DNA of 55,882 bases. Source: Oscillospiraceae bacterium. Its GTDB lineage: Bacteria; Bacillota; Clostridia; Oscillospirales; Oscillospiraceae. The notes beneath the pieces were generated by a model. The model was not told the DNA's origin. It searched no databases and saw only the letters and a program-made list of their open reading frames with translations. How positions within the stretch are numbered: position 1 is the first letter of the stretch; the number at the start of each line of letters is the position of its first letter. Where the stretch lies: NCBI GenBank assembly GCA_015068225.1, contig SVKX01000009.1:1-55882 (forward strand), written 5' to 3'. The translations under genes and the position numbers were made by a program. Positions 3,988 through 35,735 of this stretch are shown piece by piece.

Positions 3988-4257
3988 ATAGAAAAAGCGA
4001 TGATTGGGTCGCCCTGTACAGAGTATGCACAGCTTCAGCGAATGCGGGATGGTGGGAGCCGCTTGGGTGCTGTATCGGGCTTTCTCCCATGAGCTGCGGC
4101 CTGAACTTTCAGTAGGGTTTGCCGGGTGATGCCGTTATGCATCTTAGACGTGTCAGCGTCTGAAAAGTGCGCCGCTAACAGCGGTGAATTGCGGGTGGTA
4201 CCGCGGAAGGAAGTCCTTTCGTCCCGATTTGCGGGATGGAAGGATATTTTTTTATAG
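3988..4257 (+). ncRNA. T-box riboswitch, tRNA-Phe type
   Basis: This 270-base leader has the ordered T-box landmarks. There is an AGTA S-turn near 4020, the stem I apical motif GGGATGGTGGGAGCC (4047-4061), a specifier loop reading GAACTTTCAGTAGG, the T-box bulge GGGTGGTACCGCGG (4193-4206), and a terminator. The predicted specifier codon is UUC (4108-4110), a Phe codon, in line with pheS downstream. Uncharged tRNA-Phe pairing to the specifier and T-box bulge would favour the antiterminator and read-through into pheST. The exact 5' end is estimated from the promoter. Confidence 0.93.
4214..4253 (+). terminator. T-box regulated terminator
   Basis: Stem 4214-4226 with 4232-4244, loop ATTTG, then TATTTTTTT. 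Its 5' arm lies next to the T-box sequence, so it competes with the antiterminator. Confidence 0.9.
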
Positions 4258-23944: not shown

Positions 23945-23978
23945 ATATAGGAGTATATGTTAAAAGGAGGCGATGGAT

Positions 23979-26900
23979 GTGTCAGAGCCCAAATTGATTT
24001 CTCCGCTGCTGGACGGTTTTGTCATGGGCAGTCCCATCAGCAGCCATGACGGCGTAGTCTGCTGCCCCGCCATGAAAGCGGATTCTGATGACAAATATAT
24101 CGTCAAAATCATCTCCATCCCCGCATCTCAGGTAAAGCTGGATGCTCTGCTGCTGGCAGGCGCATTCCATGACAGGGACTCTGCTCTTGCATATTTCCGG
24201 GAGCTTGCCGATGGTGTGGTGGAAGAGGCTGTGCTTTTGCAGCGCCTGTCCCGGCTGGAGGGTTTCCTGCCCTATGAGAACTGGCAGGTCGTTCCTATGG
24301 AAAATGGAGAGACCGGCTATGATATCTATCTGGTTGGTACTTACCGCCCCACTTTGGAGCGTCATCTGCGCCGCAAGCCTATGACCCATCTGGGCGCTGT
24401 GAATCTGGGTCTGGATCTGTGCGCCGCTCTGGCGGTCTGCCGCCGCAGTGGATATCTGTATGTAGATCTGAAGCCCGGTAATATTTTTATTTGCGACGAT
24501 CATGAATACCGGATCGGTGATCTGGGCTTTATAGATTTGTCTTCTCTGGCCTATGCCTCCCTGCCGGAAAAATATCTCAGCGCTTATACTGCGCCGGAGA
24601 TCACAGACGCATATTCCGCGCTGAATGAGACGCTGGATATTTACGCCGCAGGTCTTGTCCTGTATCAGGTTTACAACAACGGCATTCTGCCCTTTGAGGG
24701 CAGAGCTCCTGCCGAGGAGCTGCCGCCGCCGGAATATGCCGACTATGAAATGGCAGAGATCATTGCCAAAGCCTGCGCTGTTAATCCTGAGGACCGCTGG
24801 CAGTCTCCTGTGGAAATGGGACAGGCCTTGGTGGCTTATATGCAGCGCAACAGCATCGACGATACGCCCATCGTGCCGCCTGCCATTCCTGTAGAGCCGG
24901 ATCCCGAACCTGTGGAAGTGCTTGCCGAGGAAGATGACGAACCTTCTGTTGACACACTGATTGCGGAAGTGGATCAGGTGCTGGATGCCCCGGTCAGCCC
25001 TGTGGAGGAATCGGATGAGGCAGAGATCTGTGAAGAAACTGCTGAAATATCCGAGCCGGAGGAACCCACATCTATACAGGAGGAGTCCTCGGAAGAAGAG
25101 ATCGCTGACGAAAACCCGGAGCAGGAAGCAGAAATTGTCGAGGAAACCCAAGAAACTGAAGTTGCTGAGGAAGCTGAGGAAGCGGAAGCAGAAGTGGCCT
25201 TTGCCGCTGAGGCGGCCGCTTTACAAGAGGAGCTGGGTGTTTCTGAGGAGGTTTCCCAGATCCTTGCTCAGGCAGATGATCTGATCGCCCACGAGGCACC
25301 GGAGCCTGTTGTCGCACCGGAACCTGTGGAGATCACAATTCCCGCGCCGGTGTCTCAGGAGGCAGTGTCTCCTGCTGAAGAAAATGCCCCTGTCGCCCCA
25401 TCGGAAACGGAGGCTGACGATACCAAGTCCCCCGACGCTCCCGCTCCCGAAGCAGAGCCTGCATCCGTAGCAGAGGAGGACGATGACGAGGATTACGAAT
25501 ATCCCTATTCCCGTGCTCCCAGGAAAAAGCACCGGGGCTGGCTGATCGCGCTGGTGCTGGTAATCCTGCTTGCCGGCATTGCCACCGCAGGATATATGTA
25601 CTACGAGAACTATTACCTGCAGCCGATTCTGGGCATTTCCTTGGAGGGTCAGGAGGACCATTTGACCGTCTACCTCAGCTCCCAGATTGAAGACGAGCTG
25701 CTCACGGTTTTCTGCACAGATACCTATGGCAACACCATGAAGGCTTCTGTGCGCAACGGCAAGGCCACCTTCCAGGATCTGAAGCCCAACACCCGCTACA
25801 AGGTGTATGTGGAGATCAGCGGCTTCCATAAGCTGATCGGCGTGACCAACGATGTCCATGTTACCCCCGCCCAGACCACCATTGTGGACTTTAATGCCGT
25901 TACCGGCAGCGAGGATGGCTCTGTGATCCTGAATTTCACCGTTCAGGGCCCGGAAACCAACGATTGGACCGTTACATACTCTGCCGAGGGTGAAGAGGAA
26001 AAGAGTGTCTCCTTCTCCGGCCGTATGGTAGTCGTCAACGGCCTTACCGTAGGAAAAGAATATACCTTCCATCTGGAGCCTGCAACGGAGTTGTATATCA
26101 TAGGCGAGGATACCATTACCCATACCGCCTCGGCTGTGATCCTTGCGGAGAATCTGGTTATCGAAGGTTTCCACAATAACGCCATGACGGTCACATGGAA
26201 CGCGCCGGAAGGTGCTGCCGTAGAAAGCTGGTATGTCCGCTGCTATAACGACGCCGGTTACGACAAGACCATCACCGTCACCGAAACCAAGGCCATCTTT
26301 GAGGAGCTGGACATTGCCACCGCCTATACTGTTGAGGTCACCGCTGTTGGCATGACCCAGAGCAGCCGGACCTATGTCTCTGCAAATTCCGTTACCATCC
26401 AGTCCGTTGATTTTGTGGATTCCAATCCCAATCAGCTCACTGTCAGCTGGACCTATGAGGGTACTGCCCCGGCTGGAGGCTGGCTGCTGCTGTATACTAT
26501 AGACGGTAGCAGCGAACAGCAGGTCATCCAGTGTACCGGTGAATCCGGCGTGATCAGCCCCCTGATCCCTGGCAGCCAGTATTCCATTACCATTCAGCCT
26601 GCCAGCGGCAGCACCGTATTTGATGGCTCTGCCGAGTATACCGCTCCCGCAGCAGAGGCCTTCTCCGGATATATGCTCAGTGCTGCGGATATGGATTTCC
26701 GGATGTGTAAGACACCGGAAAACCCCGAATGGGGTGAGGCGGATGTGCCTGCTGAGGATTATACCACGGTTTTCCCATCAGGCAGCAAAGCATCCTTTGC
26801 AGTACGTCTGAACCATGAGTACATTACCTCTTCTGATCAGATCGTGACCCTGTTTGTTACCCGGTCTGCTGACGGCGCCGTTGTCAGCACCGCCACCCAG

Positions 26901-27041
26901 AGCCGCACCTGGACCTCCATGTGGTACCGGGGCTTTGGCCGGATCGATATTCCTGCCCTTCCCCAAACCGCCGGCGACTATACTCTGGAAATCTACTTCA
27001 ATGGCGCACTGGTGACCACTCAGGGCTTTACAATCGAATGA
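23979..27041 (+). CDS. Transmembrane Ser/Thr kinase-like protein with Fn3-like exterior
   Basis: About 1020 residues. The N-terminal ~290 residues resemble a protein kinase: a strand lysine in KYIVKII (~43), the catalytic loop YVDLKPGN (D~163, N~168) in place of HRDLKPEN, the metal motif DLG (~181) in place of DFG, and TAPE (~207). The glycine loop is not recognisable. A Glu-rich, disordered stretch (~300-510), one transmembrane helix (~517-540) and about 480 extracellular residues in repeated beta-sandwich units follow. The GTG at 23979 is chosen because AAGGAGG lies eight bases upstream; the ATG at 23973 is only two bases from it. Kinase activity is inferred. Confidence 0.82.
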   Translation: MSEPKLISPLLDGFVMGSPISSHDGVVCCPAMKADSDDKYIVKIISIPASQVKLDALLLAGAFHDRDSALAYFRELADGVVEEAVLLQRLSRLEGFLPYENWQVVPMENGETGYDIYLVGTYRPTLERHLRRKPMTHLGAVNLGLDLCAALAVCRRSGYLYVDLKPGNIFICDDHEYRIGDLGFIDLSSLAYASLPEKYLSAYTAPEITDAYSALNETLDIYAAGLVLYQVYNNGILPFEGRAPAEELPPPEYADYEMAEIIAKACAVNPEDRWQSPVEMGQALVAYMQRNSIDDTPIVPPAIPVEPDPEPVEVLAEEDDEPSVDTLIAEVDQVLDAPVSPVEESDEAEICEETAEISEPEEPTSIQEESSEEEIADENPEQEAEIVEETQETEVAEEAEEAEAEVAFAAEAAALQEELGVSEEVSQILAQADDLIAHEAPEPVVAPEPVEITIPAPVSQEAVSPAEENAPVAPSETEADDTKSPDAPAPEAEPASVAEEDDDEDYEYPYSRAPRKKHRGWLIALVLVILLAGIATAGYMYYENYYLQPILGISLEGQEDHLTVYLSSQIEDELLTVFCTDTYGNTMKASVRNGKATFQDLKPNTRYKVYVEISGFHKLIGVTNDVHVTPAQTTIVDFNAVTGSEDGSVILNFTVQGPETNDWTVTYSAEGEEEKSVSFSGRMVVVNGLTVGKEYTFHLEPATELYIIGEDTITHTASAVILAENLVIEGFHNNAMTVTWNAPEGAAVESWYVRCYNDAGYDKTITVTETKAIFEELDIATAYTVEVTAVGMTQSSRTYVSANSVTIQSVDFVDSNPNQLTVSWTYEGTAPAGGWLLLYTIDGSSEQQVIQCTGESGVISPLIPGSQYSITIQPASGSTVFDGSAEYTAPAAEAFSGYMLSAADMDFRMCKTPENPEWGEADVPAEDYTTVFPSGSKASFAVRLNHEYITSSDQIVTLFVTRSADGAVVSTATQSRTWTSMWYRGFGRIDIPALPQTAGDYTLEIYFNGALVTTQGFTIE

Positions 27042-27045
27042 TTTC

Positions 27046-27077
27046 AAAAAAGCAGCCGCTCAGCGGCTGCTTTTTTT
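27046..27077 (+). terminator. Terminator after the kinase-like gene
   Basis: AAAAAAGCAGCCGC (27046-27059), loop TCA, GCGGCTGC and seven T (27063-27077). It insulates the kinase-like gene from the aro operon promoter. Confidence 0.9.
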
Positions 27078-27108
27078 GCTGAAGCAAGTCAAAAAGGTAA
27101 ATTTGCTC

Positions 27109-27137
27109 TTGCAAAATTCCACCCACGGTGGTATAAT
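27109..27137 (+). promoter_or_regulatory. Promoter of the aro operon leader
   Basis: -35 TTGCAA (27109-27114), 17 bases, -10 TATAAT (27132-27137). Transcription would start near 27144, 27 bases before the leader peptide. Confidence 0.75.
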
Positions 27138-27170
27138 GTCCACAGCTACTGGATTTGGAGGCAAATCGTC

Positions 27171-27236
27171 ATGATTTCCATTACTGCTGCACAGTTCTTT
27201 TTTGGCTACTATTACTTTTTTATGGACAAAAAGTAA
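27171..27236 (+). CDS. Phe/Tyr-rich attenuator leader peptide
   Basis: A 21-codon ORF with GGAGG eleven bases before the ATG. The peptide starts MISITAAQ, then has the control run FFFGYYYFF, then MDKK and TAA. Five Phe and three Tyr codons in nine positions, in front of an operon that makes Phe and Tyr, is the hallmark of a leader peptide whose translation speed reports aminoacyl-tRNA levels. The control codons lie in the 5' arm of a 12-bp hairpin (27209-27220 with 27228-27239), and the stop codon lies in its 3' arm. Confidence 0.88.
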   Translation: MISITAAQFFFGYYYFFMDKK

Positions 27237-27313
27237 TAGCGATTTGTGCTGCAGATTTTTTCAGAAGCAAAGCAAGTTTTTAAGCCGCTGCACAGGATCG
27301 CATCTGTGCAGCG
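27185..27313 (+). promoter_or_regulatory. Ribosome-dependent attenuator of the aro operon
   Basis: Four competing segments are visible. Segment 1 (27185-27193, CTGCTGCAC) pairs with segment 2 (27246-27254, GTGCTGCAG) at eight of nine positions, closing over the inner 12-bp hairpin. Segment 2 (27244-27254) can instead pair with segment 3 (27285-27295) as an antiterminator. Segment 3 also pairs with segment 4 (27304-27313) to give the terminator. A ribosome stalled on the Phe/Tyr codons would block 1:2 and allow 2:3; a ribosome reaching the stop would cover segment 2 and allow 3:4. Confidence 0.82.
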
Positions 27314-27325
27314 TTTTTATTTTAT
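27286..27325 (+). terminator. Attenuator terminator of the aro operon
   Basis: A perfect 10-bp stem (27286-27295 with 27304-27313), eight-base loop, then TTTTTATTTTATT. It lies 50 bases before aroF. Confidence 0.92.
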
Positions 27326-27362
27326 TGCCGCCTATAGCGGTTGATACTGGGAGATGTTTTTT

Positions 27363-28364
27363 ATGATCGCTGTTCTTAAGCAAGGTACCACTCAGGCACA
27401 GACTCAACACCTCATTGACTGGCTGAAGCACATGAACCTGGATGTGCATATTTCCGAAGGTCAGGAGGTAACCATCCTCGGCCTTATCGGCGATACCACC
27501 CGGGTAGATATGGAGCTGCTGGGCAGTCTGGAGATCGTGGAATCTGTCAAGCGGGTGTCTGAACCCTATAAGCAGGCCAACCGCAAATTCCACCCCAAGG
27601 ACACGGTGGTTCAGATCGGTGATGTGCGCATTGGCGGCGGTCATTTTGCCATGATTGCAGGCCCTTGCAGCGTGGAATCGGAAGAGCAGATCATTGAGGT
27701 TGCCACAGCCGTCAAGGAGGCTGGCGCACAGATCCTTCGGGGCGGTGCTTTCAAGCCCCGCACCTCTCCCTATGCGTTTCAGGGTATGAAGGGAAAGGGC
27801 ATTGACCTGCTTCTGGAAGCCAAAAAGGTCACAGGTCTTCCCATTATTACAGAAATCATGAACATCAGCACTCTGGAGCTTTTCAACGATGTAGACATTA
27901 TTCAGGTAGGCGCCAGAAATATGCAGAATTTTGACCTTTTGAAGGAGCTGGGCAAGACCAAAAAGCCCATCTTGCTCAAGCGGGGTCTTGCCAACACATT
28001 ACAGGAGCTTCTGATGAGCGCGGAATATATTATGAGCGAGGGCAACGAAAATATTATCCTCTGCGAGCGGGGCATTCGTACCTTCGAGACCTGCACCCGC
28101 AATACCCTGGATATTTCCGCCGTATCTGTCCTGCACGAGATGACCCACCTGCCGGTGGTGGTAGATCCCAGCCACGCCACCGGAAAATCCCGCCTCGTGC
28201 CCCCCATGGCTGCCGCGGCGGCTGCTGCCGGCGCTGACGGCATCATGGTAGAGGTCCACAACAATCCTGCCTGCGCCCTGTGCGACGGTGCCCAGTCTCT
28301 GACCCCCCAGCAGTTTGCGGACCTGAATCAGCGGGTTCAGAGGATCCGGGAGGCCATCTTATGA
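27363..28364 (+). CDS. aroF: 3-deoxy-7-phosphoheptulonate (DAHP) synthase
   Basis: 333 residues, type I-beta DAHP synthase, joining PEP and erythrose-4-phosphate, the entry step of the shikimate pathway. An N-terminal ferredoxin-like regulatory domain (1 to ~70) precedes the TIM barrel with AGPCSVES, GAFKPRTSPYAFQG, ILLKRG, LCERGIRTFE and VDPSHATGK. The ATG at 27363 has GGGAGA upstream and fits the family start MIAVLKQG. The N-terminal domain often gives feedback control by Phe or Tyr; the ligand cannot be read from sequence. First gene of an eight-gene operon; the stop overlaps tyrA by four bases. Confidence 0.96.
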   Translation: MIAVLKQGTTQAQTQHLIDWLKHMNLDVHISEGQEVTILGLIGDTTRVDMELLGSLEIVESVKRVSEPYKQANRKFHPKDTVVQIGDVRIGGGHFAMIAGPCSVESEEQIIEVATAVKEAGAQILRGGAFKPRTSPYAFQGMKGKGIDLLLEAKKVTGLPIITEIMNISTLELFNDVDIIQVGARNMQNFDLLKELGKTKKPILLKRGLANTLQELLMSAEYIMSEGNENIILCERGIRTFETCTRNTLDISAVSVLHEMTHLPVVVDPSHATGKSRLVPPMAAAAAAAGADGIMVEVHNNPACALCDGAQSLTPQQFADLNQRVQRIREAIL

Positions 28365-29191
28365 CAGTCGGCATTTTAGGCCTTGGCCTGATCGGTGGCT
28401 CTGCGGCCCGTGCTTATGCCAAAGCCGGCCATCAGGTTCTAGCCTGTGAGAAGGACGAAAGCATTCTGGGCTTTGCTCAGCTTTCCGGTGCGGTCCACGG
28501 CGTTCTGGATGCGGACACCGTCGGTAAATGCGATCTGATCCTTTTAGCGATCTATCCGGAAGGATGCATCTCTTTTCTGGAAAAGCATGCCCACCTGATT
28601 TCGTCCTCTGCGCTGGTCATGGATCTTTGCGGCATCAAAGAGGAGATTTGCCGCCGCTGCTTCCCACTGGCTGAAACATACGGTTTTACCTTTGTCGGTG
28701 GGCATCCCATGGCCGGTACTCATTTTTCCGGCTTCAAATACAGCCGTTCCAATCTGTTTCAGGGTGCGCCCATGGTGCTTGTCCCCTCTGTATTTGACAA
28801 TATGCAGCTGCTGGAACGGGTAAAGGAAGCTCTTTCCCCCTGCGGCTTTGGATCTTTTTCTGTGTGCAGCGCCGAAGAGCACGACCGGCTCATTGCCTTT
28901 ACCTCTCAAATGCCCCATGTGCTCAGCAATGCCTATATCAAATCCCCTACTGCTGCTTCCCACAAGGGGTTCTCCGCAGGCAGCTATAAGGACCTGACCC
29001 GGGTGGCATGGCTGAATCCGCAAATGTGGGCAGAGCTTTGCATGGAAAACCGGGAGAATATGCTATTCGAGCTAAATGCCTATATAGAAAGCCTGCAGGC
29101 CTACAAAAAAGCCCTGCAATCGAAGGATATGGATGCGCTTACCGCACTTCTGGAAGAGGGCCGCAAACGCAAGGAGGAGGTAGACGGATGA
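28361..29191 (+). CDS. tyrA: Prephenate dehydrogenase
   Basis: 276 residues. It oxidises prephenate to 4-hydroxyphenylpyruvate with NAD(P)+. The Rossmann motif GILGLGLIGGSAARA is at the N-terminus; the catalytic signature GGHPMAGTHFSGF and the helical C-terminal dimer domain follow. There is no C-terminal ACT domain, unlike Bacillus TyrA, so feedback control by Tyr may be weak. The start is set by the ATGA overlap with aroF; an in-frame extension inside aroF is rejected. Confidence 0.95.
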   Translation: MTVGILGLGLIGGSAARAYAKAGHQVLACEKDESILGFAQLSGAVHGVLDADTVGKCDLILLAIYPEGCISFLEKHAHLISSSALVMDLCGIKEEICRRCFPLAETYGFTFVGGHPMAGTHFSGFKYSRSNLFQGAPMVLVPSVFDNMQLLERVKEALSPCGFGSFSVCSAEEHDRLIAFTSQMPHVLSNAYIKSPTAASHKGFSAGSYKDLTRVAWLNPQMWAELCMENRENMLFELNAYIESLQAYKKALQSKDMDALTALLEEGRKRKEEVDG

Positions 29192-30240
29192 AGACCATCC
29201 CTGTCAACACCGCAAACAGCTATGAAGTGAAGATCGGTGCCGGGCTTCTTTGCCGCTTGGGCGATGAGGCCGCCGAAGTCTGCAAAGGAAGAACCGCTGT
29301 CATTATCAGCGATTCCAATGTCTTCCCTCTTTACGGACAAACCGCAACAAATAATCTGAAAAAATCGGGATTTTCCGTTGTTTCCTATGTGTTTCCTGCT
29401 GGTGAAGCCAGCAAAAACGGCAGCACTTATCTGTCTATTCTGAACTTTCTGGCAGAAAACCATGTTACCCGCACAGACTGCCTGATTGCCCTGGGCGGTG
29501 GCGTGGTGGGAGATATGACCGGCTTTGCCGCAGCCACTTATCTGCGGGGCATCGCCTATATTCAAGTCCCCACAACCCTTCTGGCGGCGGTGGATTCCTC
29601 TGTAGGTGGAAAGACCGCTATTGACCTGCCTGCAGGCAAAAACTTAGCCGGTGCCTTCTATCAACCCCGGCTGGTACTGTGTGACATAGACACCCTTGCC
29701 ACCCTGCCCGAGGATATATTTCGGGACGGATGCGCCGAGGTCATCAAATACGGAATTTTGTATGACAGCGCGCTTTTCGACCATTTGGCGGAAAAAGGGC
29801 TTTGCTTCCATCGGGAAACGGTTATTGCCCGCTGTGTGGAGCTCAAGCGCGATGTGGTCACAGAAGACGAGTTCGATACCGGCGCGCGGATGAAGCTGAA
29901 TCTGGGCCACACCGTTGGTCACGGTGTGGAAGCCCAAAGCAATTTCACCCTGTCCCACGGAAAAGCTGTGGCCATCGGCATGGCAATCGTCAGCCGCAGT
30001 GCCGCCAAAGCAGGCATTTGTTCTCAGGAATGCTGCGACCGGATCCTGAACATTTTGGAGGATTTTGGTCTGCCCACTGCCGCCGGCTGCACCGCCGGAG
30101 AGCTTTTTACCAGCGCCCTGTCGGATAAAAAACGTGCCGGCAGCACGATCCACCTCATCATTCCGGAGAGGATCGGCTTCTGCCGCATATGTCCTACCGG
30201 AATCAACGAACTACAATCCTTTATTGAAGCAGGTCTTTGA
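29188..30240 (+). CDS. aroB: 3-dehydroquinate synthase
   Basis: 350 residues. It converts DAHP to 3-dehydroquinate using NAD+ and a divalent metal. Visible motifs are CLIALGGGVVGDMTGFAAATYLRGI, TTLLAAVDSSVGGKTAID, and the metal-binding histidines in NLGHTVGHGVE. AAGGAGGAGG lies before the ATG, which overlaps the tyrA stop by four bases. Length is normal. Confidence 0.97.
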   Translation: MKTIPVNTANSYEVKIGAGLLCRLGDEAAEVCKGRTAVIISDSNVFPLYGQTATNNLKKSGFSVVSYVFPAGEASKNGSTYLSILNFLAENHVTRTDCLIALGGGVVGDMTGFAAATYLRGIAYIQVPTTLLAAVDSSVGGKTAIDLPAGKNLAGAFYQPRLVLCDIDTLATLPEDIFRDGCAEVIKYGILYDSALFDHLAEKGLCFHRETVIARCVELKRDVVTEDEFDTGARMKLNLGHTVGHGVEAQSNFTLSHGKAVAIGMAIVSRSAAKAGICSQECCDRILNILEDFGLPTAAGCTAGELFTSALSDKKRAGSTIHLIIPERIGFCRICPTGINELQSFIEAGL

Positions 30241-30241
30241 T

Positions 30242-31408
30242 ATGGACATTACCATCAAACCGGGCCTCTTGAAGGGGGAGATCACCGTCATCCCCTCCAA
30301 ATCCCAGGCTCACCGGCTGCTGATCTGCGCAGCCCTTGCAGACAAACCGACACAGCTGGTTTGCAGCGAAACCAATCGGGATATTGAAGCCACCGCAGAC
30401 TGCCTGCGCGCACTCGGCGCGGAAATTACCCGCACAGACTCGGGTTATTCCATCTTCCCCACGAAAGCTGCGCCGGAAAAAGCCACCCTCAACTGCGGAG
30501 AAAGCGGTTCGACACTGCGGTTTCTCCTGCCGATTGCAGGCGCACTGGGTTTAGACGCCACCTTCCAACTGGAAGGAAGGCTGCCACAGCGACCCCTTTC
30601 CCCACTGTGGGAGGAGATGGAACGGATGGGCTGCCGCCTTTCCAGACCGACGGAAACTACCGTCCGCTGCGAAGGAAAGCTGAAAAGCGGAGAGTATGTT
30701 ATCGATGGCGGCATTTCCAGCCAGTTCATCACCGGCCTGCTTTTTGCCCATGCTCTGCTGGGCGAATGCAGCCTGACGGTTACCGGCAAGCTGGAATCCC
30801 AGCCCTATGTGGACATGACAGCAGAGGCGCTACGCATTTTTGATGCCCCCCGTTTCCATACCCCCGGCCATCTGACAGTAGAGGGGGATTGGAGCAACGG
30901 TGCTTTCTGGCTGGCAGCAAATTCTTTGGGATGCGAGCTGTCTGTCCATGGCCTGAACACAGATTCCCTGCAGGGAGACCGGGCTGTCATTTCCATTCTG
31001 CGGCAATTGGACGCCGGAACTCCCGTGATTTCGGCCGGGGATATTCCGGATCTTGTGCCCATTCTGGCGGTGTGCGCCGCCGCAAAAGGCGGCTGTGTCT
31101 TTACAGATATCCGGCGGCTGCGGCTGAAGGAATCCGATCGGGTGGCCTCTGTTATGGCCATGCTGGAAGGTCTGGGAGGCAAGGCAGAAGCCGACGAAAA
31201 CACCTTAACTGTCTACGGCACAGGGCTGTGTGGCGGCACTGTCAACAGTATGAATGACCACCGCATCGCCATGGCTGCTGCCATCGGGGCAACCGCGTGC
31301 AAGGAGACGGTAACCATTCTGGGCGCAGAAGCCGTAAGCAAATCCTATCCCCGTTTCTGGGAAGAATATATCCGTTTGGGAGGTAATTATGAGCTCTACC
31401 TACGGTGA
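30242..31408 (+). CDS. aroA: 3-phosphoshikimate 1-carboxyvinyltransferase (EPSP synthase)
   Basis: 388 residues, slightly short for the family (~430). It condenses shikimate-3-phosphate with PEP. Motifs are IPSKSQAHRLLICAALA at the N-terminus, NCGESGSTLRFLLP (PEP site), DGGISSQFITGLL, RLKESDRVASV and MNDHRIAMA. The start follows the aroB stop by one base and has only a weak site (AGCAGG), consistent with translational coupling. The last 20 bases overlap aroC. Confidence 0.96.
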   Translation: MDITIKPGLLKGEITVIPSKSQAHRLLICAALADKPTQLVCSETNRDIEATADCLRALGAEITRTDSGYSIFPTKAAPEKATLNCGESGSTLRFLLPIAGALGLDATFQLEGRLPQRPLSPLWEEMERMGCRLSRPTETTVRCEGKLKSGEYVIDGGISSQFITGLLFAHALLGECSLTVTGKLESQPYVDMTAEALRIFDAPRFHTPGHLTVEGDWSNGAFWLAANSLGCELSVHGLNTDSLQGDRAVISILRQLDAGTPVISAGDIPDLVPILAVCAAAKGGCVFTDIRRLRLKESDRVASVMAMLEGLGGKAEADENTLTVYGTGLCGGTVNSMNDHRIAMAAAIGATACKETVTILGAEAVSKSYPRFWEEYIRLGGNYELYLR

Positions 31409-32477
31409 AAATTTGAAACTTTCGATCTTTGGCCAGTCCCACGGGGCCGGCATCGGCATGACCCTGGATGGCATTCCTGCAGGTCTGCCGGTGGATTTGG
31501 AAAAGCTGCAGGTCTTTCTGAACCGCCGGGCACCGGGGCAGAACAACTGGTCTACCCCCCGCAAGGAAGAGGATGCTCCGGAATTTCTTTCCGGCATTGT
31601 CGATGGTTTTACCTGCGGCGCGCCCATTGCGGCGGTGATCCGCAACACCAACACCCGCAGTGGTGACTACGCAAACCTGAAGGACTGCCCCCGACCTGGC
31701 CACGCGGACTATACCGCCCAGATCAAATACGGCGGTTTCCAGGATGCTGCCGGGGGCGGACATTTTTCCGGCAGACTTACAGCCCCGCTTTGCATTGCCG
31801 GCGGCCTGTGCAAGCAATGGTTGGAGGAAAAGGGCATTTATATTGGCGCCCACATCAGCTGGCTCTACGGCCTGAACGACGATTTCTTTAATCCCATGGA
31901 ACCTCAGATCCATAAGGTCTGCCGGGAGTTTCCTGTTCTGAATCTTGCCAAGGGCCTGCGGATGCAGGAGGCCATTGCCAAGGCCCGGGCTGAGGGCGAC
32001 AGTGTCGGCGGCATGATTGAATGCGCCATTACCGGCCTGCCTGCAGGACTTGGGGATCCCATGTTCGGCGGCATGGAAAGCCGGATCGCATCCATTGTCT
32101 ACAGCATTCCCGCCGTCAAGAGCATATCCTTTGGCATTGGTGCTTCTGTCGCCCACATTCCGGGCAGTGAAAATAACGATGAATTTACCATTGAAAACGG
32201 TCAGGTAAAGACACTGACCAATCACTGCGGCGGTGTTTTAGGCGGTATTACCAACGGCATGCCTCTGCTTTTCCACGCAGCCATCAAACCCACCCCTTCC
32301 ATCTCCCGACCCCAGCAAAGTGTATCTTTAAGCCGTATGGAGGTCACCTCTCTGGAGATTAAGGGGCGGCACGATCCCTGCATCGTTCCAAGGGCTGTGC
32401 CGGTTGTGGAGGCTGCCGCTGCCATTGCTGTTTTTGATGCTTATCTTGCTACTTTTCGGAATGATTGGAGGAAATAA
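31389..32477 (+). CDS. aroC: Chorismate synthase
   Basis: 362 residues. It makes chorismate from EPSP with reduced FMN. Signatures are FGQSHGAGIGMTLDGIPAG, RRAPGQ, RPGHADYTAQIKYG and the central DAAGGGHFSGR region. GGGAGGT lies five bases before the ATG, and the gene starts 20 bases inside aroA, the longest overlap in this operon. Confidence 0.97.
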   Translation: MSSTYGENLKLSIFGQSHGAGIGMTLDGIPAGLPVDLEKLQVFLNRRAPGQNNWSTPRKEEDAPEFLSGIVDGFTCGAPIAAVIRNTNTRSGDYANLKDCPRPGHADYTAQIKYGGFQDAAGGGHFSGRLTAPLCIAGGLCKQWLEEKGIYIGAHISWLYGLNDDFFNPMEPQIHKVCREFPVLNLAKGLRMQEAIAKARAEGDSVGGMIECAITGLPAGLGDPMFGGMESRIASIVYSIPAVKSISFGIGASVAHIPGSENNDEFTIENGQVKTLTNHCGGVLGGITNGMPLLFHAAIKPTPSISRPQQSVSLSRMEVTSLEIKGRHDPCIVPRAVPVVEAAAAIAVFDAYLATFRNDWRK

Positions 32478-32479
32478 TC

Positions 32480-33622
32480 ATGGAATTAAATGAACTTCGG
32501 GAGGGAATCGACCGGATCGATGATGAGCTTGTGAAGCTTTTCAAAGCCCGCATGGATGTATCCGCTAAAATCGCGGATTATAAGAAGGAGCAGCATCTTC
32601 CCATTTATGTCCCTGCCCGGGAGCGGGAAAAGCTGGCAGATGTGGCAGAAAAAGCCGGCCCGGAAATGGGAAATTACACCCGTGTGCTCTACTCCATGCT
32701 CTTTGAGCTGAGCCGTAGCTATCAGGGAAAGCGGAACAATACCCTCTCCCCTCTTTATCACAAGATCACGAAGGCCATTGATTCCACCCCCCAGCTGTTT
32801 CCCCAGCAGGCAATGGTAGCCTGTCAGGGCGTAGAGGGCGCTTACTCTCAGATCGCCTGTGAGAAGATCTTCAAAAGCCCCTTTATTATGTATTTCAAAA
32901 ACTTCGACGGTGTCTTTACCGCCATTGAGCAAGGTCTTTGCCAGTATGGCATCCTCCCCATCGAAAATTCCACTGCCGGCTCGGTAAAAAAGGTGTATGA
33001 TCTGATGATCCGCCACAATTTCTCCATTGTCCGCAGCTTCCGGCTGAAGGTGGATCACAATCTGCTGGCCAATCCCGGCGCCACCATGGAATCCATCAAA
33101 GAGATCTATTCCCATGAGCAGGCCATCAACCAATGCAGCGATTTTCTGAAAAATCTGACCGGTGTGAAGATCATCCCTGTGGAAAACACAGCTACCGCTG
33201 CTGAAATGGTGGCAAGCTCCGGCCGCACGGATATCGCAGCCCTGTCCAGCCGCAGCTGCGCGGAGCTGTACGGTCTAAAATCCCTTGCTTCTTCCGTGCA
33301 GGATAAGGATAACAACCATACCCGTTTCATCTGCATCAGCAAGAATCTGGAGATCTATCCCGGATCGGACAAAACCAGCATCATGATGATCCTGAACCAC
33401 CGTCCCGGTGCCCTGTATAAAGTGCTGGCGCGGCTGTATGTACTGGGCATCAATGTGACCAAGCTAGAATCCCGCCCCCTGCCTGACCGGGATTTTGAAT
33501 TCATGTTCTATTTTGATCTGGAAACCTCCATTTACTCCGAGGAATTCGTCCAGCTGATGTGCGAGCTGGAGGATCTGTGCGAGGAGTTTAAGTACCTGGG
33601 AAGCTACAGCGAGGTCGTATAA
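32480..33622 (+). CDS. pheA: Bifunctional chorismate mutase/prephenate dehydratase
   Basis: 380 residues. An AroQ-type chorismate mutase domain (1 to ~85, LREGIDRIDDELVKLFKARM) is followed by prephenate dehydratase (~110-285, QGVEGAYSQIACEKIF, ILPIENSTAGSV, NNHTRFICIS) and a C-terminal ACT domain (~300-370, HRPGALYKVLARLYVLGIN, ESRPLPD). The GALY and ESRP elements form the Phe-binding site in known P-proteins, so Phe feedback inhibition is expected. GGAGG lies before the ATG, two bases after aroC. Confidence 0.96.
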   Translation: MELNELREGIDRIDDELVKLFKARMDVSAKIADYKKEQHLPIYVPAREREKLADVAEKAGPEMGNYTRVLYSMLFELSRSYQGKRNNTLSPLYHKITKAIDSTPQLFPQQAMVACQGVEGAYSQIACEKIFKSPFIMYFKNFDGVFTAIEQGLCQYGILPIENSTAGSVKKVYDLMIRHNFSIVRSFRLKVDHNLLANPGATMESIKEIYSHEQAINQCSDFLKNLTGVKIIPVENTATAAEMVASSGRTDIAALSSRSCAELYGLKSLASSVQDKDNNHTRFICISKNLEIYPGSDKTSIMMILNHRPGALYKVLARLYVLGINVTKLESRPLPDRDFEFMFYFDLETSIYSEEFVQLMCELEDLCEEFKYLGSYSEVV

Positions 33623-34848
33623 TGAAGTGCGGTCTGCTTGGAAAAAAGCTGGGGCACAGCTATTCTCCCCAGATCCATCGGCATCTGGGGGACTATCCCT
33701 ATGATCTCTATGAAAAAACGCCGGAGGAACTGCCCGAGTTTCTGCTGCACGGAGATTTTACAGGCCTGAATGTGACCATGCCCTACAAAAAGGATGTGAT
33801 GGCCTACTGCAGCTCCCTTTCTCCCAAAGCGGAAGCACTGAACGCAGTAAATGTTTTGGTCCGGCAGCCAGATGGCGGTCTGATGGGGCACAACACGGAC
33901 TATTATGGCTTCGAAACCATGCTGCAAAGTACAGGCTTGTCCGTTTCCGGCAAAAAAGTGCTGGTGCTGGGTAGCGGTGGTGCTTCCAACACAGCTGTGG
34001 CGGTTTTAAAGGCCCATGGCGCTCGGGTGGTAGTGATCTCCCGCAGCGGAGAAAACCATTACGGTAATCTCCACCTTCACACCGATGCCTCTGTCATCGT
34101 CAATACAACGCCTGTGGGCATGTATCCAAATACCGGTGAATCTGCTGTGGATCCGGCGCTTTTCCCCCATCTGGAGGGGGTACTGGATGTAGTCTACAAT
34201 CCTGCCCGCACCCGTCTTTTGCTGGATGCAGAAAAGCGGGGCCTGATCACTGCCAACGGCCTGCTGATGCTGGTGGCACAGGCGAAGGAAGCGGCAGAAT
34301 GGTTTACCGGCCAGCCCATACCGGAGGATCGGGTGACCTTCATCCATAAGGCCCTTCGCAGCCAAATGGAAAATATTATCCTCATCGGTATGCCCGGCAG
34401 CGGAAAATCCACCGTTGGCAGGCTGCTGGCGGACATGACCGGAAAGAAGTTCATTGACGCAGATGCTTTTCTTATTCAAAAGGCGGGAAGGACCATTCCG
34501 GAGATCTTTGCTTCCGATGGAGAAGCTGCGTTCCGCACCTTGGAAACACAGGTGCTGAAGGAGCTTGGCTGCCAGTCCGGCCTGATCATCGCCACCGGCG
34601 GTGGCTGTGTCACCCGGGAGGAAAACTATCCCCTGCTCCATCAAAACGGCACGATCTTCTGTCTGGATCGGGATCTTCAAAAGCTTCCTGTGGATGGTCG
34701 GCCTCTTTCTCAAAACACAAACCTTTCTCAAATGTATCAGCTTCGCAAACCTCTGTATGACCGATTTGCCGATCACCATATCGACAATAACGGCGCTGCC
34801 CAATGCGCTGCCGCGCAGATCCTGAAAATCTGGGAGGAACGAGAATGA
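33622..34848 (+). CDS. aroEK: Shikimate dehydrogenase-shikimate kinase fusion
   Basis: 408 residues in one frame. Residues 1 to ~250 are AroE: GKKLGHSYSPQIH, catalytic Lys56 in NVTMPYKKD, Asp93 in GHNTDYYG, and the NADP loop VLGSGGASNTAVAVL. Residues ~251-408 are AroK: P-loop GMPGSGKST starting at ~256, DADAFL, FRTLETQVL, ATGGGCVTR and the lid RPLSQ. It performs the fourth and fifth shikimate steps in one polypeptide, reducing dehydroshikimate and phosphorylating shikimate. Start and pheA stop share one base (TAATG). Confidence 0.95.
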   Translation: MKCGLLGKKLGHSYSPQIHRHLGDYPYDLYEKTPEELPEFLLHGDFTGLNVTMPYKKDVMAYCSSLSPKAEALNAVNVLVRQPDGGLMGHNTDYYGFETMLQSTGLSVSGKKVLVLGSGGASNTAVAVLKAHGARVVVISRSGENHYGNLHLHTDASVIVNTTPVGMYPNTGESAVDPALFPHLEGVLDVVYNPARTRLLLDAEKRGLITANGLLMLVAQAKEAAEWFTGQPIPEDRVTFIHKALRSQMENIILIGMPGSGKSTVGRLLADMTGKKFIDADAFLIQKAGRTIPEIFASDGEAAFRTLETQVLKELGCQSGLIIATGGGCVTREENYPLLHQNGTIFCLDRDLQKLPVDGRPLSQNTNLSQMYQLRKPLYDRFADHHIDNNGAAQCAAAQILKIWEERE

Positions 34849-35279
34849 AGATCCTTGTTATCAACGGCCCAAATATCAATATGCTGGGCATTCGGGAGCC
34901 GGGAATCTACGGAAAAAACACCTTTGCAGACCTTTTGGTGCTGATCGCGCAGACCGCCCGGGAGGAAAATCTGGATATTGAGCAGTTCCAATCCAACCAC
35001 GAGGGCGCTCTCGTGGATAAAATTCAGGAATGCTACGGCAAGGTTGACGGTATCGTAATCAATCCCGCCGCCTACACCCACACCTCGGTTGCCATTTTGG
35101 ATGCGCTGAAGTCTGTATCCATTCCGGCAGTAGAAGTCCACATTTCCGATGTGGATGCCAGAGAGTCTTTTCGGCAGATCTCCTACGCCGGCATGGCCTG
35201 CGTGCACACCATTAAGGGACAAGGGCTGGAGGGTTATCGGCAGGCGATCCTGTACCTGAAGCAAAACTATGGCAAATAA
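34845..35279 (+). CDS. aroQ: Type II 3-dehydroquinate dehydratase
   Basis: 144 residues, dodecameric class II dehydroquinase. Signatures are INGPNINMLGIREPGIYG with the catalytic tyrosine, FQSNHEGALVDKIQ, INPAAYTHTSVAILDAL and VEVHISDVDARESF. It dehydrates 3-dehydroquinate. The start overlaps the aroEK stop by four bases and GGGAGG lies upstream. It is the last gene of the operon. Confidence 0.97.
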   Translation: MKILVINGPNINMLGIREPGIYGKNTFADLLVLIAQTAREENLDIEQFQSNHEGALVDKIQECYGKVDGIVINPAAYTHTSVAILDALKSVSIPAVEVHISDVDARESFRQISYAGMACVHTIKGQGLEGYRQAILYLKQNYGK

Positions 35280-35283
35280 AAGT

Positions 35284-35330
35284 ATCCGGCTGTCACGAAA
35301 GGCGACAGCCGGATTATTTCATTTCTTTTT
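35284..35330. terminator. Terminator of the aro operon
   Basis: Stem 35284-35294 with 35304-35314, then TATTTCATTTCTTTTT. It lies between convergent aroQ and the gtrA-like gene and overlaps the end of the latter. Confidence 0.82.
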
Positions 35331-35735
35331 AAATACCAGCAGCTTACTGCCAAAGTAGTTCACAATGATCACCAGAATGTTGGTAAACAGCTTCATCCAG
35401 TTGCCATCCCACAGCAGCCAGTCCACCGTAACCAGAATGATCACCGTCTCCAGAACGCCGGAAAGCAGCCGGCAGCTAACGAATTTGCCCAACTCCGGCA
35501 GCACCGTCTTTGCTGACCAATCCTTGCTTTTGAAGACAAAAGGCTTGTTGGTCAAAAAGGCAAAGGCCACCGCTACCACCCAGGCAATACCATTGCTGAC
35601 TGCCGCGCTCAATCCAAGAAAGTTATAACAGGGCAAGTAAACCCCGTAATTCACCACTGTGGTCAGAACGCCGAAGAACAGGTAAGCAAGGGCGTCATAA
35701 TAGCGCAGCAGAAGCGCTTTCAGCTTTTGAAGCAT
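35319..35735 (-). CDS. GtrA family membrane protein
   Basis: 138 residues with four hydrophobic helices (about 15-35, 40-60, 78-98, 110-130). The family motif is YLFFGVLTTVVNYGVY at the N-terminus and FTNILVIIVNYFGSKLLVF at the end. GtrA-like proteins are thought to move lipid-linked sugars across the membrane; no glycosyltransferase partner is next to it. The start shares one base with the stop of the LUD gene, so the two are coupled. Confidence 0.9.
   Translation of the reverse strand: MLQKLKALLLRYYDALAYLFFGVLTTVVNYGVYLPCYNFLGLSAAVSNGIAWVVAVAFAFLTNKPFVFKSKDWSAKTVLPELGKFVSCRLLSGVLETVIILVTVDWLLWDGNWMKLFTNILVIIVNYFGSKLLVFKKK

Follow-up and report, generated by a model that had tools for sequence, protein, structure and literature searches.

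How does a bacterium of the Clostridia control the synthesis of phenylalanine and tyrosine when the genes of the pathway lie together in one operon? The question is raised by the window analyzed here (the whole stretch of 55,882 nucleotides from an Oscillospiraceae bacterium), in which eight genes encoding nine activities overlap or nearly so on the + strand: aroF (DAHP synthase, PF00793 with a ferredoxin-like FXD domain; 27363..28364), tyrA (prephenate dehydrogenase; 28355..29191), aroB (3-dehydroquinate synthase; 29188..30240), aroA (EPSP synthase; 30242..31408), aroC (chorismate synthase; 31389..32477), pheA (chorismate mutase-prephenate dehydratase; 32480..33622), an aroE-aroK fusion (shikimate dehydrogenase and shikimate kinase; 33622..34848), and aroQ (type II 3-dehydroquinate dehydratase; 34845..35279). 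Between them, these genes cover the steps that lead from DAHP to prephenate and from prephenate to the precursors of Phe and Tyr. A first-pass annotation had called it a complete aromatic operon, and while its eight genes were borne out, an aromatic aminotransferase is missing from it.

Upstream of aroF (27109-27362), every leader element listed in that annotation was found in its place by direct reading of the sequence. On the + strand, a sigma-A-type promoter (TTGCAA-17-TATAAT with TG before the -10, at 27109..27137; TTGCAA at 27109-27114, 17 nt, TATAAT at 27132-27137), identified from sequence and comparison with relatives, is followed by a GGAGG ribosome-binding site (27157..27161) and by an ORF of 21 codons then TAA TAG (27171..27236), whose predicted translation, from sequence and comparison, is the leader peptide MISITAAQFFFGYYYFFMDKK. 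Codons 9-17 of this ORF read FFFGYYYFF, with the control codons at 27195-27221. Four RNA segments on the same strand can alternatively pair as 1:2, 2:3, or 3:4: segment 1 (CUGCUGCACAG; 27184..27194), assigned from the fold and pair counts as the partner of segment 2; segment 2 (GCGAUUUGUGCUGC; 27239..27252), the 5' strand of the antiterminator according to conservation and the 2:3 tests; segment 3 with part of the terminator loop (CGCUGCACAGGAUCGC; 27286..27301), common to antiterminator and terminator according to conservation and covariation; and segment 4 (CUGUGCAGCG; 27304..27313), the 3' strand of the terminator according to pair counts of the 3:4 helix and a terminator scan. The U-run of the intrinsic terminator, read from the sequence, occupies 27314..27325, and the terminator stem ends 49 nt before aroF. 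An inner 12-bp hairpin is formed by a 5' arm of Tyr-Tyr-Phe-Phe codons (CUAUUACUUUUU; 27209..27220), as judged from pairing in 34 leaders, and a 3' arm made up of Lys-Lys and two stop codons (AAAAAGUAAUAG; 27228..27239), as judged from pairing in relatives. The 1:2 and 2:3 pairings of the first-pass annotation are both present, each stem with one mismatch in the window.

The region 27140-27325 folds at -53.1 kcal/mol (z -3.5), with 0/200 shuffles equally good, and the FFFGYYYFF pattern occurs once in the organism's own genome (assembly 78% complete). In a scan of 26950-35500, the top + strand sites were this promoter (10/12 matches) and this terminator (11 pairs); overall, the sites were not above shuffles (5 promoters vs 5.8, 10 terminators vs 10.3), and single-sequence scans are therefore little proof. 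The gene preceding the leader (23973-27041) encodes a protein-kinase-like domain and a fibronectin type III domain. A hairpin and T-run seen by eye after this gene are absent from the terminator scan list.

Leaders rich in Phe and Tyr codons (F/Y leaders) were then counted across aroF upstream regions, with a leader defined as the best short ORF with an SD and at least 6 F/Y within 10 codons. A match to aroF was found at 168 loci (from genome contigs, the 80 best of 592; from each genome search, the best 30), which yielded 154 distinct regions once 2 that were too short and 12 that duplicated another region over the final 150 bases had been removed; because they were taken from the best-scoring matches, these 154 regions lean to close relatives. 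An F/Y leader with an SD was found in 99 of them, compared with 0/154 on the reverse strand and about 0.7/154 in dinucleotide shuffles, and dropping the SD requirement raised the count to 118 (3 reversed, 2.5 shuffled). Another 60 regions were hand-picked further down the match lists, 40 from the class and 20 from the phylum (L232 and L260 shortened by contig ends; 5/60 not starting exactly at the start codon), and a leader was found in 26 of these vs 0 reversed (24/40 in the class, 2/20 in the wider phylum). Overall, an F/Y leader precedes aroF in 144 of the 214 sampled regions, and 140 of the 144 leaders contain at least 2 Phe and at least 2 Tyr codons. This comparison across regions excludes chance as the source of the predicted F/Y leader before aroF. 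A terminator with a U-run was present at 98/99 leader-positive loci (about 25% of shuffles) and at 62/63 of the more distant leaders, where the antiterminator was within the best 5% of shuffles in just 33/61. The literal FFFGYYY pattern, which matches 2 of 200 family genomes including its own, was dropped as a family marker in favor of ORF scoring; it fails because the order of F and Y drifts.

Several variants were seen among these leaders. At eight loci (L020, L047, L053, L054, L056, L065, L070, and L081), an F/Y leader without an SD is preceded by an exact TTGACA-17/18-TAnnnT that ends 6-7 nt before the ATG, so that these transcripts probably start at the AUG (i.e., are leaderless); under a stricter test, such promoters preceded 6/19 leaders without an SD vs 0/99 with one (shuffle rate about 1.4%). 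A block S-x-G-Y/F-F/L follows the main F/Y run in eleven distant leaders (L173, L181, L229, L240, L243, L245, L249, L251, L252, L258, and L263; 11/108 outside the close group defined below), several of which have Trp before the block. By a loose definition, 27/108 leaders outside the close group and 1/36 inside it have a Trp within the span bounded by their first and last aromatic residues.

The close group consists of 36 distinct leaders, including that of the window, with aroF identity of at least 76% to the window. The F/Y ORF, a promoter-like site, segment 2, and the terminator are each present in all 36. A promoter-like match (at least 8/12, within 110 nt) precedes 36/36 leaders where shuffles expect about 11/36, and the distance from the end of the -10 to the leader ATG is 28-36 nt in 35 leaders and 44 nt in one; an SD-like sequence also lies ahead of every leader. 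Phe codons hardly shift to Leu (TTY 163 vs TTR 1). Segment 2 directly follows the stop codon(s) and is mostly GCGAUUUGUGCUGC or 1-3 changes away, and the terminator hairpin with its U-run (36/36) has a stem end 20-49 nt before aroF. The motif TGTGYTGY is found behind the F/Y run in 36/36 close leaders, 12/63 more distant ones, and 0 shuffles. Leaders that keep the terminator and lose the ORF or the F/Y run, which the first-pass annotation had named as grounds for refuting attenuation, number 0/36 in the close group; this holds less well in the wider set, where 36/154 regions fall below the F/Y leader threshold and 19 of these 36 nevertheless have a terminator-like hairpin (at or below -10 kcal/mol, last 200 nt).

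Pairing was assessed in an alignment (A1) of 34 of the 36 close leaders, the near-copies L112 and L114 being omitted. The inner hairpin is paired in 99.3% of cells across the 34 leaders, and in L123 a Tyr codon has become Ser with a matching change in the stop region, so that A-U is replaced by C-G and the hairpin is retained by a double change. The 3:4 terminator helix is paired in 94.4% of cells, with double changes at 7/10 pairs, and the core of the 2:3 antiterminator (one mismatch excluded) in 97.8%, with double changes at 3/8 pairs; the weakest helix is the 1:2 outer stem (77.8% of cells, 34 leaders; double change at 1/8 pairs). Taken together, the 1:2, inner, and 3:4 helices show double changes at 10/30 pairs (shuffle mean 4.7, 0/500 as high), compared with the 3/8 of the 2:3 helix (shuffle mean 0.6, 2/500 as high), and both counts exceed every slid control. 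Further pair types are weakly raised (26 vs 24.0, 44/500 shuffles as high). Among the 28 distinct pairs of the 2:3 duplex, segments bind their own partner at -15.96 kcal/mol vs -13.55 (sd 0.38) for permuted partners (0/10,000), a permutation number that, as the sequences are related, is not a probability. The same reading applies to the portion of 2:3 outside the terminator stem (-4.90 vs -3.06 for permuted, 0/10,000); this outer part reaches into the terminator loop, so its fit to its own partner is not explained by 3:4. For example, GAGU stands opposite ACUC in L109, L113, and L114, whereas in most relatives GCGA is the partner of UUGC or UCGC. Since kinship inflates covariation tests, we gave separate kinds of change more weight than the numbers. 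Compensatory changes in segments 2 and 3, which the first-pass annotation had asked for, are thus present in the close group. One antiterminator position is mismatched in 34/34 leaders, with U opposite C or U (A1 columns 98 and 147; 27250 and 27289 in the window), as if this helix were held weaker than the terminator.

Having examined conservation, we folded the 36 close leaders with a ribosome masking 18 nt back and 13 nt ahead of the start of the A-site codon (sizes from general knowledge). With the ribosome stalled at the first F/Y codon, 2:3 forms in 36/36 leaders; at the last F/Y codon it forms in 25/36, with no antiterminator in the other 11, and on average the antiterminator forms at 90% of F/Y codons. 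Shuffling the region from the stop codon to segment 3 lowers the first-codon figure to 34%. A ribosome at the stop codon leaves 2:3 in 0/36 and 3:4 in 36/36, an outcome mostly dictated by the mask. The geometry is similarly regular: the front edge of a ribosome at the last F/Y codon falls 1-10 nt short of segment 2 in 36/36, and with the ribosome at the stop codon it reaches 9 nt into segment 2 in 35/36 and 5 nt in one. When no ribosome is present, 2:3 folds ahead of terminator synthesis in 17/36 leaders, and the untranslated state is therefore not uniformly off; the window's own leader is not among the 17 and would be off.

These data can be brought together in the following model. Transcription would start a few bases past 27137, and the long 1:2 hairpin, which combines the outer stem with the inner hairpin of control codons and stop codons, would probably pause RNA polymerase while the first ribosome catches up. 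When Phe and Tyr are plentiful, the ribosome would reach the UAA at 27234 and its front would cover about 9 nt of segment 2, which would block 2:3 and allow 3:4 to end transcription before aroF. When charged tRNA is short, the ribosome would halt within the run at 27195-27221 with segment 1 covered or melted, and the free segment 2 would pair with segment 3, so that the terminator is not formed and all eight genes are expressed. We infer translation, stalling, pausing, and the starvation response of the leader. The sequence features of an attenuator are present, namely an ORF with a ribosome-binding site and a cognate codon run before aro/tyrA/pheA genes, a mutually exclusive terminator and antiterminator with covariation (close group), and the placement of the stop codon (36/36). 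From its parts, their conservation, the covariation of pairs, and the in silico geometry, we consider it very probable that transcription of the entire operon is governed by a classical leader-peptide attenuator responding to charged tRNA-Phe and/or tRNA-Tyr. Trp/phe-type ribosome-stalling attenuation, as first proposed for this locus, is by far the best account of the conserved F/Y run, the terminator, the covarying antiterminator, and the ribosome geometry.

Other explanations would share part of this anatomy. In a nascent-peptide arrest sensor of the TnaC type, the peptide would sense free Phe/Tyr in the exit tunnel and an excess would be the signal; ORF and terminator anatomy would be identical, and the S-x-G-Y/F-F/L block that recurs in 11/108 leaders outside the close group hints at a peptide-level constraint there. 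However, F and Y swap along the run among relatives, which suits codon reading over a defined arrest peptide, RNA pairing explains why KK and the stop codons are conserved and partly explains AAQ, and an excess of product would switch on the very genes that make it, all of which renders such a sensor very unlikely. A strong terminator alone might also stand ahead of any operon, close to the promoter, unregulated, and letting a constant share of transcripts pass, but segment 2 and the F/Y run should then drift, whereas segment 2 is present in 36/36 leaders and covaries with segment 3; we regard this explanation as scarcely credible, and the least probable of those considered.

The strong fold of the untranslated RNA (z -3.5) would also fit an RNA-only or protein-mediated switch (T-box, riboswitch, or RNA-binding protein) beside a fortuitous ORF, and T-boxes do occur elsewhere in this genome (12 matches). 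Such elements can lie near aroF as well: when 20 loci then taken as leader-negative were searched, a T-box was found 44 nt before the leader-negative aroF of L178, and at L158 another lies on the aroF strand, some 590 nt ahead of the gene (four of the 20, L138, L148, L161, and L162, were later scored as leaders without an SD). In the window, however, no Rfam family reached its gathering score, including the amino-acid operon leaders (trp, phe, his, and others), and the T-box model (RF00230) had no match in 27050-27400 up to E 10, where the same model finds 12 places elsewhere in the genome at E 0.001. The near-matches in the leader are at chance level and none is a T-box, the nearest cis-regulatory one being the trpB motif (20.2 of 59 bits, E 1.7). 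Given that the TTY:TTR ratio of 163 to 1 and the conservation of the reading frame in 36 leaders would be left unexplained, a switch of this kind is extremely unlikely, and attenuation by a translated leader peptide remains our preferred reading. The trpB motif (RF04312) was also considered as the Trp version of the leader and rejected for the 14 loci with such leaders, which gave no gathering match.

The same cell appears to use T-boxes for other genes. Six of the 12 T-box matches in the genome are above the family cut-off, and the genes behind the 12 include tyrS, pheS, and trpB (checked), as well as valS, ileS, thrS, a LeuA-like enzyme, and three AMP-ligase-like genes (by eye). One T-box lies in the window itself, before pheS (3991-4229; 77.9 bits, gathering score 93), and its specifier, at the position that we take it to occupy, looks like UUC. 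Phe-tRNA is probably read both by this T-box and by the leader peptide at 27171, and with T-boxes before tyrS and pheS, the cell probably reads tRNA-Tyr and tRNA-Phe by T-box as well as by leader.

Attenuation of this type also requires a ribosome close behind RNA polymerase. Transcription has been reported to outrun translation in B. subtilis. In the organism studied here, gene-end terminators (n=62; simple ORF calls in 455,882 of 1,462,484 bases) have stems that start a median of 9.5 nt past the stop codon, 40/62 within 12 nt, vs a median of 23.5 nt and 5/20 within 12 nt in an E. coli control (200,000 bases; Fisher p 0.004). In the available part of the published work (PMC7858274), short stop-to-terminator spacing serves as a proxy for runaway, uncoupled transcription. 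A coupling-dependent switch inside a genome with runaway-type terminator spacing is the most testable puzzle that this locus presents.

The reach of the leader was explored with a covariance model built from the 34 close leaders. In its own genome, the leader is the sole strong match (142.6 bits); the next full-length match (29.6 bits; C21:15701-15865) has no F/Y ORF and no aro gene and was rejected as a second leader and taken as chance. Across the order, 57 of 197 genomes contain a model match with an E-value no higher than 0.01. Apart from the window and one genus mate, 28 loci were listed for the best model matches; at 21 of these an aroF of the same type follows, in each case with an F/Y ORF before it (19 with an SD), although F/Y in these matches is partly built in, as the model was made from F/Y leaders. 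The remaining seven of the 28 lie before a TrpB-like gene (3), before an AroFGH-type DAHP synthase (1), or where no aromatic gene was found (3). The first three (L200, L206, and L208) are leaders of mixed Trp, Tyr, and Phe codons (AKYWYFYFT, AKYWRYFNFTFYGF) before a TrpB-like PLP enzyme, and L216 is an F/Y leader before a DAHP synthase of a family distinct from the window aroF. The last three (L204, L211, and L214) had no aro gene by tblastn and were taken as chance; a family scan gave no family for L204 and a SigK-like one for L211.

With rather more doubt than conviction, we suggest that one aromatic attenuator family may extend through much of Clostridia and be tuned by lineage: Phe and Tyr codons in the present genus, Trp codons as well in certain others, Trp versions before a TrpB-like enzyme, one version before a DAHP synthase of a different type, and some leaderless. 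It would work in runaway-spacing genomes, so that local ribosome-RNA polymerase coupling would have to be enforced by the long 1:2 hairpin, with its pairing of Tyr-Phe codons to stop codons. T-boxes would then serve genes that depend on one tRNA (pheS, tyrS, trpB), and leader peptides branch-point pathways that read two or three.

The layout itself is familiar. The pheA, pheST, and trp attenuators of E. coli follow the 1:2, 2:3, 3:4 logic, with a stop codon that lets the ribosome cover segment 2, and each responds to one amino acid (summarized in PMC11802643); the window leader shares this pairing logic, and is likened to these gammaproteobacterial systems by layout. The aroR leader of C. glutamicum is reportedly due to Neshat et al. 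2014. According to the accessible text on aroR (PMC11802643, PMC4046766), it is likewise a Phe/Tyr leader peptide with ribosome-stalling attenuation ahead of a DAHP synthase operon; it differs in belonging to Actinobacteria and in having three aromatic codons vs eight in the window leader, and the two are likened by description. In the accessible part of one of these accounts (PMC11802643), Phe limitation raises transcription from the aroR leader (Phe-Tyr-Phe) before aroF and Tyr availability is without effect. That a shortage of Phe or of Tyr alone might open the operon studied here, as the first-pass annotation proposed, is only somewhat more likely than not; we lowered this likelihood because the related aroR is reported blind to Tyr, and the leader here has more Tyr codons than aroR, in a row.

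Three further sets of leaders bear comparison, each as presented in the available portions of its source. The candidate uORFC-13-1 (Brewer et al. 2021, PMC8632094; 24 representatives, from Acholeplasma and environmental sequences only) resembles the window leader, by description, in having a uORF with at least 1 Phe codon, a promoter, a ribosome-binding site, and a terminator before aroF, and differs in that no Tyr is named in that portion of the paper. Two uORF candidates mined from five genomes including Clostridium novyi (Stav et al. 2019, PMC6429828) likewise have F and Y codons with shikimate genes downstream and, by description, may belong to the same family as the window leader. In Bacillota, the same broad group, leader-peptide attenuators in place of T-boxes are reported for his genes (PMC2965389, PMC9413887), which differ from the present case in the amino acid (histidine) and the genes. 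The first-pass statement that no family had been described for this leader was therefore too strong, going by the available portions of the work on the F/Y shikimate uORFs (PMC6429828), uORFC-13-1 (PMC8632094), and aroR (PMC11802643, PMC4046766), all published candidates. In the literature, supplements and most subscription papers aside, we found no description of this leader family in Oscillospiraceae-type Clostridia. The leader thus belongs to a known kind and may be part of a larger family that others have already seen in part.

Overall, the F/Y leader most likely lets this gut Clostridia bacterium switch on Phe and Tyr synthesis when these amino acids run short. The findings suggest that textbook attenuation is not mainly proteobacterial, and that in gut Clostridia it commonly controls the first step of aromatic synthesis, beside T-boxes in the same cell; the switch would be widespread in bacteria thought to depend mainly on other switches. 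For annotation, short F/Y(/W) ORFs ahead of aroF are probably regulatory. Because attenuation of this type works only if a ribosome follows RNA polymerase closely, these leaders would also serve as a natural test of how, and at which places, the two are coupled in Bacillota.
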